In this document: piece after piece, positions 4,342-21,413 of the stretch
How the letters are laid out: the number at the start of each line of letters is the position of its first letter
Numbering within the stretch: position 1 is the first letter of the stretch
Source of the DNA: a virus
DNA: 23,409 bases
Strand: one strand, 5' to 3'
IMG/VR virus record: IMGVR_UViG_3300031215_000070
Location: 1 to 23,409 of that record
Notes under the pieces: generated by a model
Told to the model about the DNA's origin: nothing
The model's database searches: none
What the model saw: only the letters and a program-made list of their open reading frames with translations
Translations under genes and position numbers: made by a program

Positions 4342-4529
4342 ATCATCAATTTTAATGATAAAAGAACAATACCAATACTAAAAAATATAAAAGAGATTAC
4401 ATAAAAAACCATAGAAAAAAGGGAATATGTTCTCCTATAAGCTTTTAAATCTTCTATTGACTTATTCTTATACTTTTTTTCCCTATGATCTTTTAAACCT
4501 TCTGATAATTTATTCTTATACTTTTTCAT
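4338..4529 (-). CDS. Small membrane protein with duplicated basic N-terminus (63 aa)
   Basis: The first 32 residues are two copies of a 16-residue unit, KKYKNKLSEGLKDHRE and KKYKNKSIEDLKAYRR, followed by one or two hydrophobic segments (about 36-61, SLFSMVFYVISFIFFSIGIV …). The repeat is visible in the DNA as TTATTCTTATACTTTTT at 4462 and 4510, 48 bases apart. The start overlaps the upstream gene by 14 bases and the stop overlaps the downstream start by 4. The basic head would face the cytoplasm. No family recognised. Confidence 0.6.
   Translation of the reverse strand: MKKYKNKLSEGLKDHREKKYKNKSIEDLKAYRRTYSLFSMVFYVISFIFFSIGIVLLSLKLMM
4462..4526. repeat. In-frame 48-bp tandem duplication
   Basis: A 17-base identical sequence (TTATTCTTATACTTTTT) occurs at 4462-4478 and 4510-4526, exactly 16 codons apart, with related sequence between. 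It lies in the 5' part of the 63-aa membrane protein gene and duplicates a basic peptide unit without breaking the frame. Confidence 0.65.
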
Positions 4530-5103: not shown

Positions 5104-6645
5104 CTATGACAATAGTGAGTTCTTAATTCGGTTGATACTTTCATCCTTTCCAAGAATAACCATTGTAGTCATAAGATCTGGACCTGATACTCCACCAGTT
5201 AGAGCTTGTCTAAGACCCGGCATTACCTTTCCAAATCGATAACCTTTCTCTTTTACAGTTAATTTGTAAATGAGATCTTTAATTGGTTGACCTTCTTTAA
5301 AGTTTAACCCTTCGTTTTCAAGGTGAAAATCAAAGTTTGAGAATACATTTCTAAACTCATCATTAAACTTAGAAACATCAGTATAATTTTCAATTGGTTT
5401 TAAGAAGATATCAATAATAGTTGAGAGATCTTTTCTAAAAACAGCTCTTTCTTTAGCTAAATCTAGAACCATTTCTAACTTTTCAGTACCCCATTCTGAA
5501 ACTTCTTCAGATGTAAATACATCAGAGATACTTAGTTTATTCACATATTGTGAGTTAAACCAATTTAATTTCTTAATATCAAATCGACATCCTGCTTTTG
5601 ATACTCTATTCATATCAAAATCTTCAATCATTTCATCCATTGAAAGGATTTCTTTATCGTTAGTTGGTGTCCAGCCAAGTAAAGCAAGGAAGTTAACAAA
5701 TGCGTCAGACTCATAACCTTGTTCGTCATAACCTAACATATTCACGAGGTTACCTTTCTTATCTTCAACATCACATGTCAAAGGAAATACAGAGAAACCG
5801 TTAGTAATACCACTTCGTTTGGAAAGTTTACCTTTACCATTTGGGTTTAAAATTAATGGTAGGTGAGCAAATGTTGGTCGATCAAGTCCAAGAGCGTCAT
5901 ATAACATACAGTGTAGGCTTACACTAGGTAACCATTCTTCACCTCTAATTACATGAGTGATACCCATTTCATAATCATCAACAATGTTAGCCATATGGTA
6001 TGTAGGAATCCCATTCTTTTTCAAAAGAACTTTATCATCCATAACATTTGATTGAAGTTTAACTCTTCCACGAATCATATCATCAACTTCAATGATTTCA
6101 TCCTTTGGACAGTTAAATCGAATAACATATGGAGTCCCATTTTCTAACAATTCGTTTACTTCATCTTCTGATAGTGTGAATGAATTTTTCATATTCATTC
6201 TACTTTTTCGGTTGTAGGCAAAGTTCTTAACACCGTTTTCTTTCAACTCAGCTCGATAAGCGTCCAATTCTTCGGGTGTATCAAATGCGTAATATGCATC
6301 TCCCGAGTCAATTAGTTGTTTGATATATTTATCATAGATACCTGCTTCAGATCTTTCTGATTGTCTATAAAGACCAATATCTTCATTTGGATTCCAAGGA
6401 GATTCATCAACACTTATACCAACCCATTCCATAGATCTTTGGATGTAATCTTCTGCTCCTTCTACAAAACGTTTTTGGTCAGTGTCTTCAATCCTTAGAA
6501 GAAAATCACCGTTGTTTTGTTTTGCGAATAAGTAACAGATTAGAGCCGTCCTCAGTCCCCCTAAATGTAAATTTCCAGTAGGAGAAGGTGCAAAACGAGT
6601 TCTTACTTTTTTATCAGTTTTTAAAGTTTGATTTGTTTTTGACAT
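5104..6645 (-). CDS. gltX: Glutamyl-tRNA synthetase, class I, Bacteroidetes type
   Basis: The 513-residue protein is full length for bacterial GltX. The class-I HIGH signature is at residues 20-30 (PSPTGNLHLGG), with LRIEDTD and YRQSERSE following. VIRGEEWLPS lies in the Rossmann core, and the KMSKS-type loop is GKGKLSKR near residue 275. The sequence GFSVFPL after the loop, followed by an extra segment, and SKAGCRFDIKKLNWFN are features I associate with Bacteroidetes GltX. The enzyme charges tRNA-Glu in the cytoplasm using ATP. All core elements are present, so it is probably active. It has its own upstream spacer and terminator. No tRNA-Glu is visible in the window. A complete GltX in a phage is rare; it probably came from a host and may support translation late in infection or evade host tRNA damage. 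Confidence 0.97.
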   Translation of the reverse strand: MSKTNQTLKTDKKVRTRFAPSPTGNLHLGGLRTALICYLFAKQNNGDFLLRIEDTDQKRFVEGAEDYIQRSMEWVGISVDESPWNPNEDIGLYRQSERSEAGIYDKYIKQLIDSGDAYYAFDTPEELDAYRAELKENGVKNFAYNRKSRMNMKNSFTLSEDEVNELLENGTPYVIRFNCPKDEIIEVDDMIRGRVKLQSNVMDDKVLLKKNGIPTYHMANIVDDYEMGITHVIRGEEWLPSVSLHCMLYDALGLDRPTFAHLPLILNPNGKGKLSKRSGITNGFSVFPLTCDVEDKKGNLVNMLGYDEQGYESDAFVNFLALLGWTPTNDKEILSMDEMIEDFDMNRVSKAGCRFDIKKLNWFNSQYVNKLSISDVFTSEEVSEWGTEKLEMVLDLAKERAVFRKDLSTIIDIFLKPIENYTDVSKFNDEFRNVFSNFDFHLENEGLNFKEGQPIKDLIYKLTVKEKGYRFGKVMPGLRQALTGGVSGPDLMTTMVILGKDESINRIKNSLLS

Positions 6646-8313: not shown

Positions 8314-11300
8314 ATGCCAGAAGTACAAATAGGAAGCTTTGGAAGACCAGGTATCTACATTAGAGAATTCGGTGACAGTGTTATCGAAACACCTATTGTT
8401 GAGGGAATCCAAAATGCGGTTCTTGGTTTTGCTAAGAAAGGACCTTTCAATACACCAGTTGTGATAAATAACCAAACAGATTTAGAATCTATATTTGGTC
8501 CAATTGATAGAAGGTTAGAGAGAAAAGGATCTTTCTTCCATAGAACTATATCTAAACTACTAGAATCAAACCCAGTAGTAGCAATAAATTTACTTTTAAC
8601 AGATGATAACTTAGATACATTAGAATATCAAAGTTTTTCAACTTCAACGAAGAATTTCAATTATGTTAAAAAAGATGGACCATATTCAAGGTTCTTTGAT
8701 AGATCAGGTTTTTGGAAAAAAGATACAGATTCATTCAATACATTAGCAAATGAAGATCCAAATGCTGATGAAAGAATATTAAACTTTACTAATATGGGTG
8801 AGAAACCTATTTCAGTATTCGTATTTAAATCAACTCAAACGGGATTTGATGTAGATATGATTTCTTGGTACGGAAGTCCAGATGATATTCCTTTATTTGT
8901 ATATCCAACAGATTATGTTTCAGATTATATGGTTGATGTTGTAGTTTTATCAGGTGACTGGACAGACTATCAACAATTAGCTGTTGATTCTAGATGGGGT
9001 AATTACTTTAACTCATCAGGTTTAATTAAATCGGAAGTTTTAAATTTCATAAATGATCCAGCATCAAGTGTGTTATCTTATTACCAAGGACTTAGTTTAA
9101 TACCTTATTTTAGAGATGCAAATGGTAGAGATATATTTATAGAAAATGTTATAAATAGAGATACAGATAAGAATGGATTATTTTGTGGATATGATATTGA
9201 TGCTGTTCAAGATACAGATTACCCAACAGGTTTAATTGACCTTATTGGTAACAACTTGATCGCAACAACCCAAAGAGATATGCCAGAGGAAGTTAATTTC
9301 TTATCTTATAAAGATGTTGTAACAGATAATGTTACATTTGAAACAAAACTTTTAGATACTCCAGGGAATGTAATTTCTTATGGTAGTTTATATAAAGGTG
9401 GTACACCTTCAAACCCATCACTTGATAGGTCAGCATTTTATGCTGAAAATCATGTATATGATGTTACAGAAAACTCTGGTTTAACAACCGGTTTTGGTGC
9501 AACAAGTGGTGTTCCAACCTTATCAACAGATATCACACTTGAATATCAAGTTGGTCCTGATGCTTACGCTGTTATAGGTGGTCAAGTACTTGAATTGGAA
9601 ACTACGGCAACATTCTCAATTGACCCATCAGATTATGTTGACGCTGATGATGGAGCTAATATTGAAGATGCAACTCCATATAAATCAACAGTAGTTGTGG
9701 ATAACACAGGAACTATTAAGATGATCAACAACATGACAAATGATGATAACCCAACAGTTGCTACAACAGATATTGTTTTAGGATATGTAGATTTTTCGGT
9801 TATAAAAATCGGTCTTACTAATTCTATTGTAGATGAAAGAACAAAACTTACAAATGTTAGTGTTGATTCTTCTGGTTTTGTTGAACTTCAAGAAAGTGTT
9901 GACTTTACTGTAACCTTTAATGGTGGTGAAATAACATGGGAATTTTTAGGTACTGCTCAAGCAGCAGACCCTAATGAATATGAGATATATAGAATATTTA
10001 AATTATTTAATAACTTACTTAATTTATTAGGTGGTCCAAATAAAGGTGAAGCGACACTAATCATAGATGGTAATATTAAAGCTTCTTTAGATACTATGAG
10101 CGTTACGGATATTGAAACTCTAACTTCTGTAAATAAAGAGTTTACTCTTGTAACAGGACTTGTTGAAACTGATATGACAGACCTTGGAGGTAATACATCA
10201 GGTACATATAACTTATTAGTGTATGTAAAGGATGACGAGTTCATATTAGGTACAGATTCGTTAATTACAACTAATCAATTACCAACAACAACTCAAGGTA
10301 TCGTAGCTAAATATTCAGATTTTTATGATAAGTATAGAGATGGTATTATTAATACGAAAGACTTTTTCTATAAGAATATGATAGCAACAGAATATGATGT
10401 TGACTTTGTAGACTTTAATGGACAAGATTATATCGTATTTGAAGATACAACTGGAATAAACCCTATCGGATTTAATACAAATGATAGAGTTATTATACCA
10501 GATTCAGAGTTTAATTCAGATGTATTCACAATTACAAATAATTCAAACTTTATAAATGGTCTAGTAACAGGTGGTGTTTATACATCTCCTACTGATAGAT
10601 ACGCATTTAGAGTTACTGAAAACGTAAGTGGATCAAGTAATGATATTAAAGAATCAATTAGTAATGTTGATAGAGTATGGGACGCAAATGACTTAGCTTA
10701 TTTGAAGATGTACTTTGATAACAGTGGTATATTGAGTGTTGAATTCCAAGACCAATTACTACAATCAACAAGTCCTATTGATATAAACAATAATATTGAA
10801 ATAACAGTAGTATCACAAAAGACTAATTTCCAACAAACAGTTGAGATTGAAGTTCCTGCGGGATACGTTCAAGTACCAAATAAGATACTTGTAAATGGAC
10901 AAAGATTTACAGAAGTTAAGATAGGTGATTTCTTACTAGCTGATGTAGATGAGAGTCAATTAGAAGCTGATGAGGTAGCTAAAAGAATGACAAGAATTCT
11001 TTCTAAGAAAGTTTACCCAGCTAATACTGATCTTGTTGAAATAACAACAGATGCGTCTATTAAGAAATATGATTTTAATGGTGATCTTCAAACAACAAGA
11101 TTTACAAGAATAGATGACTATATAACAGTTTATAAAGGATTCAGAATGAATGGATTCAAAGTTAGAGAAGCATCTATTCCAGATGGTACAGAAGAAAGAC
11201 AAGATGATATCTTAAACATTGTTGAAAAAGGATCAAATATGTTTAAAGCTATTACTGATAAAAATGTGATTGATTTCAGATATTTAGTCGATTCATTTGG

Positions 11301-12236: not shown

Positions 12237-12519
12237 GTTTAAACACAATTAATTTATTTTACTATATATAGTAATGTTAAGTAGTGAATTTATATATGAA
12301 TTTGAGAATAATAATAAGTCTGGAAAAATGACCAAGGAAAAATATATCATTAAAAATTATAATAAAGACTATGATCATATTATTAATTTTTGTGAAAATT
12401 TAGATATTCCATTTAAACAGAAAGTTTATCATACAGTTAATAAAATAAAAAGTTACTTATTATGTGAAAACCCACAGTGTGAAAATAAAGTTAAGTTTAA
12501 GAATTCAAAATTGGGTTAC

Positions 12520-12616
12520 CTTTGATGATCCGCCGATCAGTGCTATTCAGTTTAGAATGTTGAATAAGAGTAAAGGTCCAGCGATGTGGTCGCCGAGAAC
12601 GCAGAATGATAGAATG
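12520..12616 (+). other. Foreign insert of about 97 bp: fragment of a bacterial mnmG (gidA) gene
   Basis: After GGT TAC (codons for GY of the zinc knuckle) the sequence changes to GC-richer DNA (about 44 % by hand count, well above the surroundings). It returns to phage sequence at CATAAATATTGT. The plus frame codes for IQFRMLNKSKGPAMWSP followed by RTQNDRM. This matches the conserved IQFR-LN-SKGPA … R-Q-DR segment of the tRNA-modifying enzyme MnmG/GidA, in the form I associate with Bacteroidetes. The ends are uncertain by a few bases (12523-12619 is equally possible). A length of 97 is what the reading frames on both sides require. Confidence 0.65.
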
Positions 12617-12765
12617 CATAAATATTGTAGTAATAAGTGTATAGGACTCGATCCAAAAGTTATTAAAAAAAGGAAGAGTCTAATATTAAAAAATATGGAA
12701 CAAAACACGCTTCCTTAAATAAAGATATAAAAGAGTGTGATGTTAGAGAAGTTAAGGATAACCAA

Positions 12766-13284
12766 GTGGTAATAGATTTTTTGAATAATAATCATATTCA
12801 GGGGTACTCAAAAAGTAAAATAAAGATGGGATTATTTTATGAAGATGAATTAGTTTCTCTGATGACTTTTGGTGATATTAGAATTTTTATGGGAAGTAAA
12901 GACCAAGAAAAAAACAATTATGAACTTATAAGATTCTGTAATGAAAAAGGGGTAAATGTTATTGGAGGAGCATCAAGATTATTTAAGAATTTTTTAAGAA
13001 ATTATAAACCCAATAAAGTCATATCATACTCTGATAATAGTTATTCAGATGGTAGATTATATAAGACATTAGGATTTGATATTAGTGAAAGTAAGGTTCA
13101 CTTAAATTACCATTGGGTTATTAATAAGAAAAGGGAACACCGATATAAATATAGAAAGTCGGTTCTTGTTAAAATGGGATATGATTCTAATAAATCTGAA
13201 AAAGATATAATGTATGAAGATGTAGGAGCTTATAGGGTATGGGGTTGTGGTAATAAAAAATGGTTATATGTTAATAAACTTTAG
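12766..13284 (+). CDS. C-terminal part of the endonuclease-like gene, open frame (172 aa)
   Basis: This is the longest intact piece of the broken gene; its frame is already open from 12691, and GTG 12766 is only the first usable start. It holds the family's C-terminal domain: MGLFYEDELVSLMTFGD, then YELIRFCNEKGVNVIGGASR, then NKVISYSDNSYSDGRLYKTL, and a basic region with HRYKYRKS. These blocks are familiar to me from many phage homing endonucleases that carry an N-terminal zinc knuckle and a KYG motif. Whether this piece is translated alone is unknown. It would lack the zinc knuckle. Confidence 0.6.
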   Translation: MVIDFLNNNHIQGYSKSKIKMGLFYEDELVSLMTFGDIRIFMGSKDQEKNNYELIRFCNEKGVNVIGGASRLFKNFLRNYKPNKVISYSDNSYSDGRLYKTLGFDISESKVHLNYHWVINKKREHRYKYRKSVLVKMGYDSNKSEKDIMYEDVGAYRVWGCGNKKWLYVNKL

Positions 13285-14762: not shown

Positions 14763-15242
14763 ATGAAAATTCATAAAAAAATAGGTAATTTTTTAGAATC
14801 ATTAAATGAAAATGTTTCATCTGAACTCGATTCTGAAACAATATTACACATACTAAATCTTAAAATAGATGAAAAGATAGATGAAATCGAAGATGAAAAT
14901 TCTAGGACTATGGGAATTGGTATCGGTGAATCTAAAATCAGTATTCTTAATTGGGTGAAAGGTGTTATTAGTGATTTCGAAAAAACAAATGAATCTAATG
15001 ATAAGGGTATGGAACAAAAAGAGAATGTAAACGAAAGTAATGAGCCAGATTATAGAGACTATTTCATGGGTAAATTAGAAGAATTCGAAGCTGATTCTCC
15101 AGCTGACCTTACTAAAGATCAATGGGAAGAAATCAACAGAGGATGGACTTCAGAAGATGAAGGAAATTATCATACTTTTTTCAGAAATAAAATGGAAGAA
15201 TTTGGAGCTGATTCACCAGCTGATATGACTAAAGAAGTTTAG
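14763..15242 (+). CDS. Acidic phage protein with two copies of an EEF-ADSPADLTK repeat (159 aa)
   Basis: The protein starts MKIHKKIGNFLESLNENVSS, similar to the N-terminus of the next gene product (KTFIQFNEGN). After a helical part and an acidic linker come two repeats: YFMGKLEEFEADSPADLTKD (about 102-121) and FFRNKMEEFGADSPADMTKE (about 139-158). The second repeat ends abruptly at TAG 15240. Another frame continues past it (LDLSMKDENPEEL) to a TAA at 15278 that overlaps the next ATG as TAATG. This suggests that the original gene was longer and suffered a small frameshift. It is likely late-expressed (box at 14732), and a virion or assembly role is inferred from place only. Confidence 0.7.
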   Translation: MKIHKKIGNFLESLNENVSSELDSETILHILNLKIDEKIDEIEDENSRTMGIGIGESKISILNWVKGVISDFEKTNESNDKGMEQKENVNESNEPDYRDYFMGKLEEFEADSPADLTKDQWEEINRGWTSEDEGNYHTFFRNKMEEFGADSPADMTKEV

Positions 15243-15279
15243 ATCTTTCTATGAAAGATGAGAATCCAGAAGAATTATA

Positions 15280-15609
15280 ATGAAAAAAAATAATAACAAT
15301 ATCAAAACATTTATTCAATTTAATGAGGGAAATGATCACGATTTCTTAGATCCAAAATTATGGTCAAAGATGAAATCAGTTATGGATGATATTGATTATG
15401 ATATGTTAAAGTATGAAATCGGTTCGTCTTATTATGATGAAGATGATGATGATTTTGAAGATGAATTAGACTACTATGAATCACATACCCATTTTACAGA
15501 AGATGACTTAATAGAAGAAGTTACAAGTCGTATTAGAATGGGTTTAAATATTAAAGATATTGATAAATATAGACAAAGAATTGAAAACTATATAGAGAAA
15601 TATATTTGA
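15280..15609 (+). CDS. Highly acidic small protein of unknown function (109 aa)
   Basis: Plus-strand frame with ATG at 15280. After a Lys/Asn-rich start comes IKTFIQFNEGNDHDF, matching the N-terminal pattern of the upstream gene product. The centre is extremely acidic (YDEDDDDFEDELDYY), and the C-terminus is helical (RIRMGLNIKDIDKYRQRIEN). It may be part of the same transcript as 14763-15242. T4-like phages process N-termini of core proteins after (I/L)-x-E, and a site near FNE|G would fit loosely, but this is speculative. No family recognised. Confidence 0.65.
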   Translation: MKKNNNNIKTFIQFNEGNDHDFLDPKLWSKMKSVMDDIDYDMLKYEIGSSYYDEDDDDFEDELDYYESHTHFTEDDLIEEVTSRIRMGLNIKDIDKYRQRIENYIEKYI

Positions 15610-15663
15610 AAAGTTTAACAAAATGTAACTTAAATCCCTGATAATAGGGGAATAATGAGTTTT

Positions 15664-15679
15664 AATATATAATATATAA
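15664..15679 (+). promoter_or_regulatory. Double late-promoter box of the tail tube gene
   Basis: Two overlapping exact copies of AATATATAA (15664-15672 and 15671-15679) lie 30-37 bases before the tube ATG. Upstream, CCCT and AGGG around 15637-15651 can form a weak hairpin that I do not call. Confidence 0.5.
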
Positions 15680-15709
15680 AATTAAGAAAGAAAAAATAAT
15701 TAAAAAGAT

Positions 15710-16303
15710 ATGCCTTTACCACATTTCACCCAACTTCAATCAACTAATGTAAACTTTGAACCAGTTTATCCTTCGTTGTTTGAAATAACATTTGTTTTAC
15801 CAACTTTACTTCAAGAAGAAGGAAGAGATCCTTTAGTGATGTTGGAAAATGCTACTAATGTAACTTTACCACTTACTCCAGACATTACACCTACAGAACA
15901 AAGATTCAAGTTCTCTACAAGAAGATATTTAACACTTCCTGAGAGCACACACATGGACTTTGATATTAACTTTAATTTAAATGTTAATGAAGATGGTGCT
16001 GTTTTTATTTGGAACACATTAAAGAGTTGGTATGATAAAGTATGGAACTCTCAGAACGGATCAACAATGTACAAAAGAGACCTTGTTGGTACAGTAGTAG
16101 TTAACCAACACGATAAAAAAGGTTTTGTTATAAGACGAGTAACATATCAAAATGCTCAGTTAATGGGTATTGGTGAAATAGCTCTAGATTGGACAAATAA
16201 TACAAGTATTGTTGAGCCAGTTCAAGTTAACTTTACAGCTGATTACTGGACAGATGAGTACATTGATAATGACTTTGAAATCACACCTGATAACATACTT
16301 TAG
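15710..16303 (+). CDS. gp19: Tail tube protein, T4 gp19-like
   Basis: At 197 residues it is the size expected for a T4-type tail tube (T4 gp19 is about 163). Residues about 15-35 (NFEPVYPSLFEITFVLPTLL) form the typical first strands. The middle carries FKFSTRRYLTLPESTHMDFD and INFNLNVNEDGAVFIWNTLK with WYDKVWN, the conserved tube core. RDLVGTVVVNQHDKKGFVIR is followed by NAQLMGIGEIALDW and the closing strands with VNFTADYW. It stacks as hexameric rings to form the inner tail tube surrounded by the sheath encoded at 8314. In T4 the sheath and tube genes are adjacent; here about 3.5 kb of accessory genes lie between. Double late box upstream. Confidence 0.93.
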   Translation: MPLPHFTQLQSTNVNFEPVYPSLFEITFVLPTLLQEEGRDPLVMLENATNVTLPLTPDITPTEQRFKFSTRRYLTLPESTHMDFDINFNLNVNEDGAVFIWNTLKSWYDKVWNSQNGSTMYKRDLVGTVVVNQHDKKGFVIRRVTYQNAQLMGIGEIALDWTNNTSIVEPVQVNFTADYWTDEYIDNDFEITPDNIL

Positions 16304-18538: not shown

Positions 18539-18756
18539 TTATTTAATATCTTTTTGTGTGACTGGTTTATCACATTTAGGACATTTAACATAGCCCACCT
18601 CATCGTTAGGAGATTATATCGCTGCTTTCAGTAATGAGTATGCAGGTATGTATTTCGGCTCTCCTGGAGCAGTCGAGGTAGAGGAAGACCCGATTCAGGA
18701 ATAGATGTATAATCAAACTCATTTTTACAATTAGGACACACAGATATATTACCCAT
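18539..18756 (-). pseudogene. Zinc-ribbon protein gene broken by a foreign insert
   Basis: ATG 18756 opens MGNISVCPNCKNEFDYTSIP, the first half of a zinc ribbon. The matching second half, GYVKCPKCDKPVTQKDIK with TAA at 18539, is in another frame about 100 bases downstream. The two CPxC knuckles belong together as a double-knuckle ribbon of about 38-40 residues. Between them lies GC-richer sequence that shifts the frame and brings a stop (TGA) into the first. The total length, 218, leaves a multiple of 3 if 98 bases are removed. The gene begins 5 bases after the stop of the upstream gene and would have been co-transcribed with it. Confidence 0.6.
18608..18705 (+). other. Foreign insert of about 98 bp, end of a bacterial-looking gene
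   Basis: The plus frame reads GDYIAAFSNEYAGMYFGSPG then AVEVEEDPIQE and TAG, which looks like the C-terminus of a cytosolic or membrane protein, on the strand opposite to the gene it interrupts. GC is near half by eye, far above the surroundings. The exact ends are uncertain by a few bases; 98 fits the reading frames of the broken gene. I do not recognise the source gene. The size is close to that of the other insert (12520-12616). Confidence 0.5.
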
Positions 18757-21055: not shown

Positions 21056-21190
21056 TCATTTGAACCTTCTATAGATAAAATAGAAGAATCAAAACAAATA
21101 CTAGATAATTTAAAAGCTGAAAAGGAAGAAAGGGAAAAATCAGTTTCATATATTTATTTAGTTTTTTTAATAAGAAAAACCAAGTGTTAG
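21056..21190 (+). other. Coding-like remnant without a start codon
   Basis: Between TAA 21053-21055 and TAG 21188-21190 the plus frame is open and reads SFEPSIDKIEESKQILDNLK then AEKEEREKS, a typical charged coiled-coil, with no ATG, GTG or TTG at its front. Its composition is that of real protein. It may be the 3' end of a gene whose front was lost. It overlaps the promoter-proximal end of the tRNA-like RNA. Confidence 0.3.
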
Positions 21191-21341
21191 GAATCGAACC
21201 CAAAAAACTCCGTTTCGATGAATTGCCATTAGTACTTATCAGCTAACAAGTTTAATTGTGGATTTGCACCACTACGCATAATTCCCAGCCATGCTGTTAG
21301 ACATATCACCTATTTGTTACCACTCCAGAGTAACCACTTGG
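21180..21341 (-). ncRNA. Unusual tRNA-like structured RNA (about 162 nt)
   Basis: On the minus strand the 5' end CCAAGTG (21341-21335) pairs perfectly with the 3' end CACTTGG (21186-21180). The pair is extended by AAAA/TTTT outside. The 3' end is preceded directly by a T-arm, TTGGG-TTCGATT-CCTAA (5 bp with one G-U), exactly as in tRNA and tmRNA. Just after the 5' arm is a perfect 5-bp hairpin GTTAC/GTAAC with TCTGGAGTG in its loop, in the place of a D-arm. The 110 bases between hold no normal anticodon arm. Instead there is a multi-branch part: CTAACAG with TTGTTAG closing hairpins GCAT/ATGC and GTGG/CCAC, the latter with TGCAAAT loop. It is too short for a normal tmRNA and too long for a tRNA. 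Confidence 0.5.
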
Positions 21342-21413
21342 TTTTATTTAACAAATATACAATAAAAATATGAATAAACCATAAGTTTTTAAATCTTTTT
21401 ACCCTTTAAATCA

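Follow-up and report, generated by a model that had tools for sequence, protein, structure and literature searches.

Genes and features of the window

The DNA analyzed here, hereafter the window, is a viral record of 23,409 bases (IMGVR_UViG_3300031215_000070). A zinc-ribbon gene located on its minus strand, at about 18539-18756, is split by a short stretch of foreign DNA (insert 2). A homing-endonuclease gene carrying a comparable stretch (insert 1) was found 6 kb from it. The features of both loci, with the evidence on which each was placed, are the following:

18692..18756, minus strand: 5' half of the zinc-ribbon gene, MGNISVCPNCKNEFDYTSIPES (sequence and list of open reading frames)
18594..18691, sense on the plus strand: insert 2, decarboxylase fragment (tblastn and DNA alignment to 19-20 donor loci, PF00282 donors, boundary scan)
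18539..18593 (start of the stretch approximate), minus strand: 3' half of the zinc-ribbon gene, GYVKCPKCDKPVTQKDIK-stop (sequence)
12274..13284, plus strand: homing-endonuclease gene, broken (PHROG 559/3339 on the C-terminal piece; comparison with the relatives L002 and L010)
12520..12616, plus strand: insert 1, a net insertion of 97 bp with a 1-base ambiguity (not in the same gene of L002 and L010)
12520..12538, plus strand: left 19 bp of insert 1 (differ from the adjoining mnmG sequence)
12539..12617, sense on the plus strand: mnmG (gidA) fragment in insert 1 (Pfam GIDA, 9.5e-7; TIGR00136, 2e-7; DNA identity to Bacteroidota genomes)

The tail sheath encoded in the window showed 51% identity over its full length to those of the uncultured huge phages LR756502 (642 kb) and LR745206 (635 kb), which places the window within a broad group of huge phages. 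It is therefore most likely a fragment of a megaphage, to judge from its sequence, and this megaphage presumably infects Bacteroidota. Both huge phages are too distant from the window to show either of the two interrupted loci. The window also encodes a full-length glutamyl-tRNA synthetase on the minus strand at 5104-6645 (TIGR00464, E 1e-130, exceeding the curated cut-off), and a small gene contains a 48-bp tandem repeat of 1.9 copies at 4434-4526. Some 160 nt of the minus strand, at about 21184-21343, include a 7-bp acceptor-like stem (CCAAGTG/CACTTGG) together with a hairpin resembling a T-arm (TTGGGTTCGATTCCTAA), and are possibly a tRNA with extra sequence. At normal settings no tRNA or tmRNA was called at this position, and nothing alike is present there in L002. 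In addition, the sister contig L008 continues past the left end of the window and encodes, at its positions 8933-9640 and 15198-16184, a Sir2-like deacetylase and a dehydrogenase-like protein.

The interrupted zinc-ribbon gene

The two halves of the zinc-ribbon gene are out of frame with each other, the offset between the ATG and the GAG codon at 18601 being 155, i.e., 2 modulo 3. Only when 95 bp are left out do the two CxxC knuckles share one frame, and a single open frame of 40 codons with both CPxC knuckles is then obtained. This joined 40-aa frame matched the zinc-ribbon model NF047912 with 23.8 bits (E 3.2e-5), below the curated cut-off; with the halves separated by X the score was 19.2 bits, also below that cut-off. 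An intact phage relative of the zinc-ribbon gene was sought with tblastn in the loci, with a degenerate pattern across the viral contigs, in the neighbourhood of the adjacent 119-aa gene and among phage records; none was found, and the close relative L002 carries a different gene at this position.

The homology of insert 2 to the donor protein extends from about 18597 to about 18688, its plus-strand reading being TSSLGDYIAAFSNEYAGMYFGSPGAVEVEED. According to the boundary scan, the net insertion which best restores a single frame has 95 bp, 18594-18688, equivalent to 18597-18691. CCC is found at both ends of the insert, which makes the boundaries ambiguous, and could be a 3-bp duplication or microhomology. 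A repeat of at least 3 is carried by 7 of the 56 boundary pairs allowed in the scan, and for this reason the CCC repeat is not significant. Since the searches yielded no relative in which the zinc-ribbon gene is uninterrupted, we infer both the length of 95 bp and the exact empty site. The GC content at insert 2 is 0.478, 3.3 standard deviations above the window mean of 0.283, and the insert is, jointly with insert 1, the richest of the 90-bp stretches. The sole stretch of equal GC richness elsewhere in the window lies near 12520-12616, at insert 1.

Bacterial origin of insert 2

Donors were sought by scanning a genome collection with a degenerate pattern of 26 bases, taken from the central part of insert 2 (NEY[AG]GxYF[GA]). 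It matched 26 genome stretches, while about 3 were expected by chance according to our own information estimate. In 20 of the 26 the similarity continued beyond the pattern, over 28-34 residues with 53-73% identity, and all 20 were annotated as Bacteroidota lineages. Where the protein was checked, a single family was found, the pyridoxal-dependent decarboxylases (PF00282). When 19 donors were aligned at the DNA level, the ends of the insert were again placed near 18597 and 18688. The Dokdonia copy shows that the matching segment is internal, since insert 2 corresponds to residues 102-132 of its 481-aa decarboxylase, at 68%. A Pfam search with the 32-residue fragment alone gave no match. Among the genomes sampled (up to 395 of one class), the best decarboxylase donor reached 88% identity over 41 bp. 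Insert 2 is thus of bacterial origin and, to judge from these alignments, represents an internal segment of a Bacteroidota pyridoxal-dependent decarboxylase gene. It must be noted that it covers just about 31 codons of such a gene and therefore encodes no enzyme.

These results bear on an earlier note on this DNA, which had described two CPxC halves in different frames separated by GC-rich DNA and had read the latter as a foreign, bacterial fragment inserted into a zinc-ribbon gene. The arrangement is present as described, with the offset and the GC content given above, and the foreign origin is borne out by the decarboxylase matches. The note had named two findings that would speak against its reading, an intact longer gene in related phages, or the absence of a bacterial match together with read support for a phage-only origin; neither came out, as no phage was seen to have such a gene and the fragment does match bacteria. 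The boundaries which it proposed, 18608-18705, have to be moved by about 10 bases on the left and about 15 on the right, as the homology covers about 18597-18688 and the net insertion has 95 bp. It had also taken the fragment for the 3' end of a bacterial gene, a reading which is wrong because the donor segment is internal. The stop after EEDPIQE, in which the gene was supposed to end, is an accident of the junction: from there on the DNA is that of the zinc-ribbon gene, translated from its opposite strand, so that PIQE-stop is the antisense of the zinc-ribbon codons around SIPES. Hence the overall interpretation stands as regards a foreign bacterial insertion with a companion fragment elsewhere in the window, and falls as regards the gene end.

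A second bacterial fragment in the homing-endonuclease gene

The companion, or first, fragment is insert 1, at 12520-12616, which contains mnmG sequence and is not in L002 or L010. The empty site is therefore observed in two relatives, and the comparison with L002 shows that 97 bp net were added with a flanking loss of at most about 2 bases. The mnmG fragment aligns to positions 71-97 of the TIGR00136 profile, which amounts to just about 26 codons of MnmG/GidA. Its DNA identity to Bacteroidota genomes is 75-86%, the best match having 86% over 71 bp (up to 395 genomes of one class). No genome of this sample matched both the mnmG and the decarboxylase fragments well, and a search of 13 further related records for mnmG fragments gave none.

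For the left 19 bp of insert 1, a possible source is the GFDxSPMF segment, which they resemble and which lies 180 codons downstream in mnmG. This likeness is suggestive only, the shuffle p value being 0.004-0.056 depending on the boundaries chosen. Two separate mnmG segments within one insert would fit a switch of template, a possibility to which we give little weight.

Besides insert 1, the homing-endonuclease gene has a frame shift and lacks about 815 bases relative to L002. This gene adjoins the tail sheath; the relatives retain it at the same place, and some of them have a second copy.

Presence of the inserts in a second contig

A second contig, L009 (IMGVR_UViG_3300031269_000068), differs from the window by 2 SNPs over 21,070 bp and is otherwise identical to it in that stretch. 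Both inserts are present in it letter by letter, and this speaks against an isolated mistake of the assembly. The window derives from a metagenome, and bacterial stretches could in principle have been put into a phage contig by a chimera in the library or by a false join in the assembly. The second contig may derive from a related sample, and it has its end 43 bp away from one further block in which the two contigs disagree. On the other hand, this contig has SNPs of its own and still carries both inserts unchanged. Moreover, the phage flanks are intact on either side of each insert with next to no bases lost, the comparison at insert 2 being with the deduced empty site; a chimera or a mis-join would rarely yield such flanks, and here it would have had to do so twice. 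The identical inserts in the second contig and the intact flanks speak against a random chimera even if the two samples may be related, and we regard an artefact as unlikely.

The further block comprises about 74 bp at window positions 21070-21143, replaced by 64 unrelated bp at 22758-22821 of L009, with identical flanks. It is the only block that distinguishes the two near-identical contigs, and in the L009 version a frame of 29 aa spans both flanks. No relatives of this block were found, the searches giving only weak short matches as expected from AT-rich sequence. It is possibly an assembly-edge effect, and it was given little weight because of its position 43 bases from the contig end.

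Origin of the inserts

In our opinion the inserts were probably acquired by accident. Two events of illegitimate recombination, of the templated-insertion type, would each have put about 95 bp of bacterial DNA into the megaphage and broken a gene that it may well have been able to dispense with. The setting was probably phage DNA replication or the repair of a double-strand break, in a cell that contained host DNA in degraded or single-stranded form. There, a broken or stalled phage end would pair with host DNA through a few bases, about 95 bases would be copied from it or a host oligonucleotide would be joined in, and the end would go back to phage DNA with few or no phage bases lost. The same kind of event would have brought 97 bp with mnmG sequence into the homing-endonuclease gene. 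Both broken genes would then be dispensable and the inserts themselves functionless.

Several traits fit accidents better than an element. The donors are unrelated genes, the ends of the inserts are not shared, and no further copies of either insert were found in the loci compared. The orientations relative to the interrupted genes are opposite, insert 1 being sense to mnmG and insert 2 antisense to the decarboxylase. On the coding strand, neither insert has structure beyond that of shuffled sequences (folding z-scores of 0.46 for insert 2 and 0.87 for insert 1). Some observations count against accidental capture. Random events with a broad range of lengths should not give two inserts as alike as 95 and 97 bp in the space of 6 kb, with the reservation that there are two cases only. 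The CCC repeat is not significant, and similar inserts were not found in pairs of related megaphage contigs.

The near-equal lengths could be taken instead as the mark of a dedicated process, in which an integrase-like or reverse-transcriptase-like enzyme of the phage lineage or of its host would repeatedly write host-gene pieces of about 95 bp into small phage genes, disabling or diversifying them. If so, the two equal-sized inserts within 23 kb and the unrelated block that differs between the near-identical contigs would be three outcomes of that process. Nevertheless, two cases are too few for similar lengths to establish it; the inserts lack common ends and a significant target duplication, related contigs carry no such inserts, and no candidate enzyme was identified in the window. 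We judge an enzyme-driven origin to be improbable. An insertion sequence or MITE was rejected, given the absence of other copies in the loci compared, the different ends and the non-significant end repeat.

Still more doubtful are the readings that assign a role to the inserts. Insert 2 could be a removable element, an intron or a translational bypass, passed over in expression, with the zinc ribbon being produced all the same, and the glycine codons GGT and GGC at the two zinc-ribbon junctions loosely recall the matched codons of T4 gene 60. A group I or group II intron or another known RNA element was discarded, as no Rfam match was found in the window (gathering thresholds) and no unusually stable fold at either insert (coding strand). 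Insert 2 folds no better than its shuffles on the coding strand, it consists of host coding sequence, and the homing-endonuclease gene is inactivated in any case by its frame shift and deletion; removal during expression is accordingly very improbable. Equally hard to credit is a regulatory scrap, i.e., host sequence carried by the phage to make antisense RNA against a host mRNA. From the strand of the zinc-ribbon gene insert 2 is indeed antisense to the decarboxylase, but insert 1 is sense to mnmG on the strand of its gene and the inserts therefore share no orientation. Furthermore, no stable structure appears on the coding strands, and the identity to the sampled donor genomes is just moderate. 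In summary, nothing supports a transposon, an intron, a bypass element or a function. Accidental capture remains the preferred reading: on at least two occasions this phage lineage took up short segments of bacterial DNA, probably through sloppy copying in repair or replication.

Host-to-phage gene flow is mostly recognized in the form of entire genes or of long recombinant stretches. Host scraps that are short and non-homologous, lying within genes of a phage, would directly record illegitimate or templated insertion in the course of phage replication. As each scrap is shorter than a gene, annotation pipelines miss this type of gene breakage. Should the remainder of the genome contain more scraps, the mechanism could be tested from their ends and donors with sequence data alone.

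Comparison with known processes

A literature search, limited and covering few subscription journals, returned no published report of scraps of this kind in phage DNA. Eukaryotic end joining is known to leave templated insertions, or filler DNA, where a double-strand break was repaired; tens of bases are then copied from another location, in some cases from two neighbouring positions of a single template. The inserts described here would share with filler DNA the copying of tens of bases from another location. They differ in that the break and the polymerase are here hypothetical, and in that the two-piece origin of insert 1 is suggestive only.

Among known processes, the nearest is the short-patch double illegitimate recombination (SPDIR) of Acinetobacter (Harms et al., 2016, through the citing papers PMC7192050 and PMC6321871). 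The inserts have in common with it a short foreign segment, two non-homologous (illegitimate) joints and the lack of a mobile element. In Acinetobacter baylyi, the SPDIR segment reportedly replaces recipient bases, and does so in bacterial genomes. At insert 1, 97 bp were gained net with at most about 2 bases lost, so that recipient bases were not replaced, while at insert 2 the empty site is the deduced one. As regards microhomology, CCC is found at both ends of insert 2, yet 7 of the 56 allowed boundary pairs carry such a repeat, and microhomology is here no more than possible. For these two reasons the inserts were not classed as SPDIR. By analogy, they may be said to work like SPDIR, with the difference that the recipient is a phage and that, at insert 1, bases were gained and hardly any lost.
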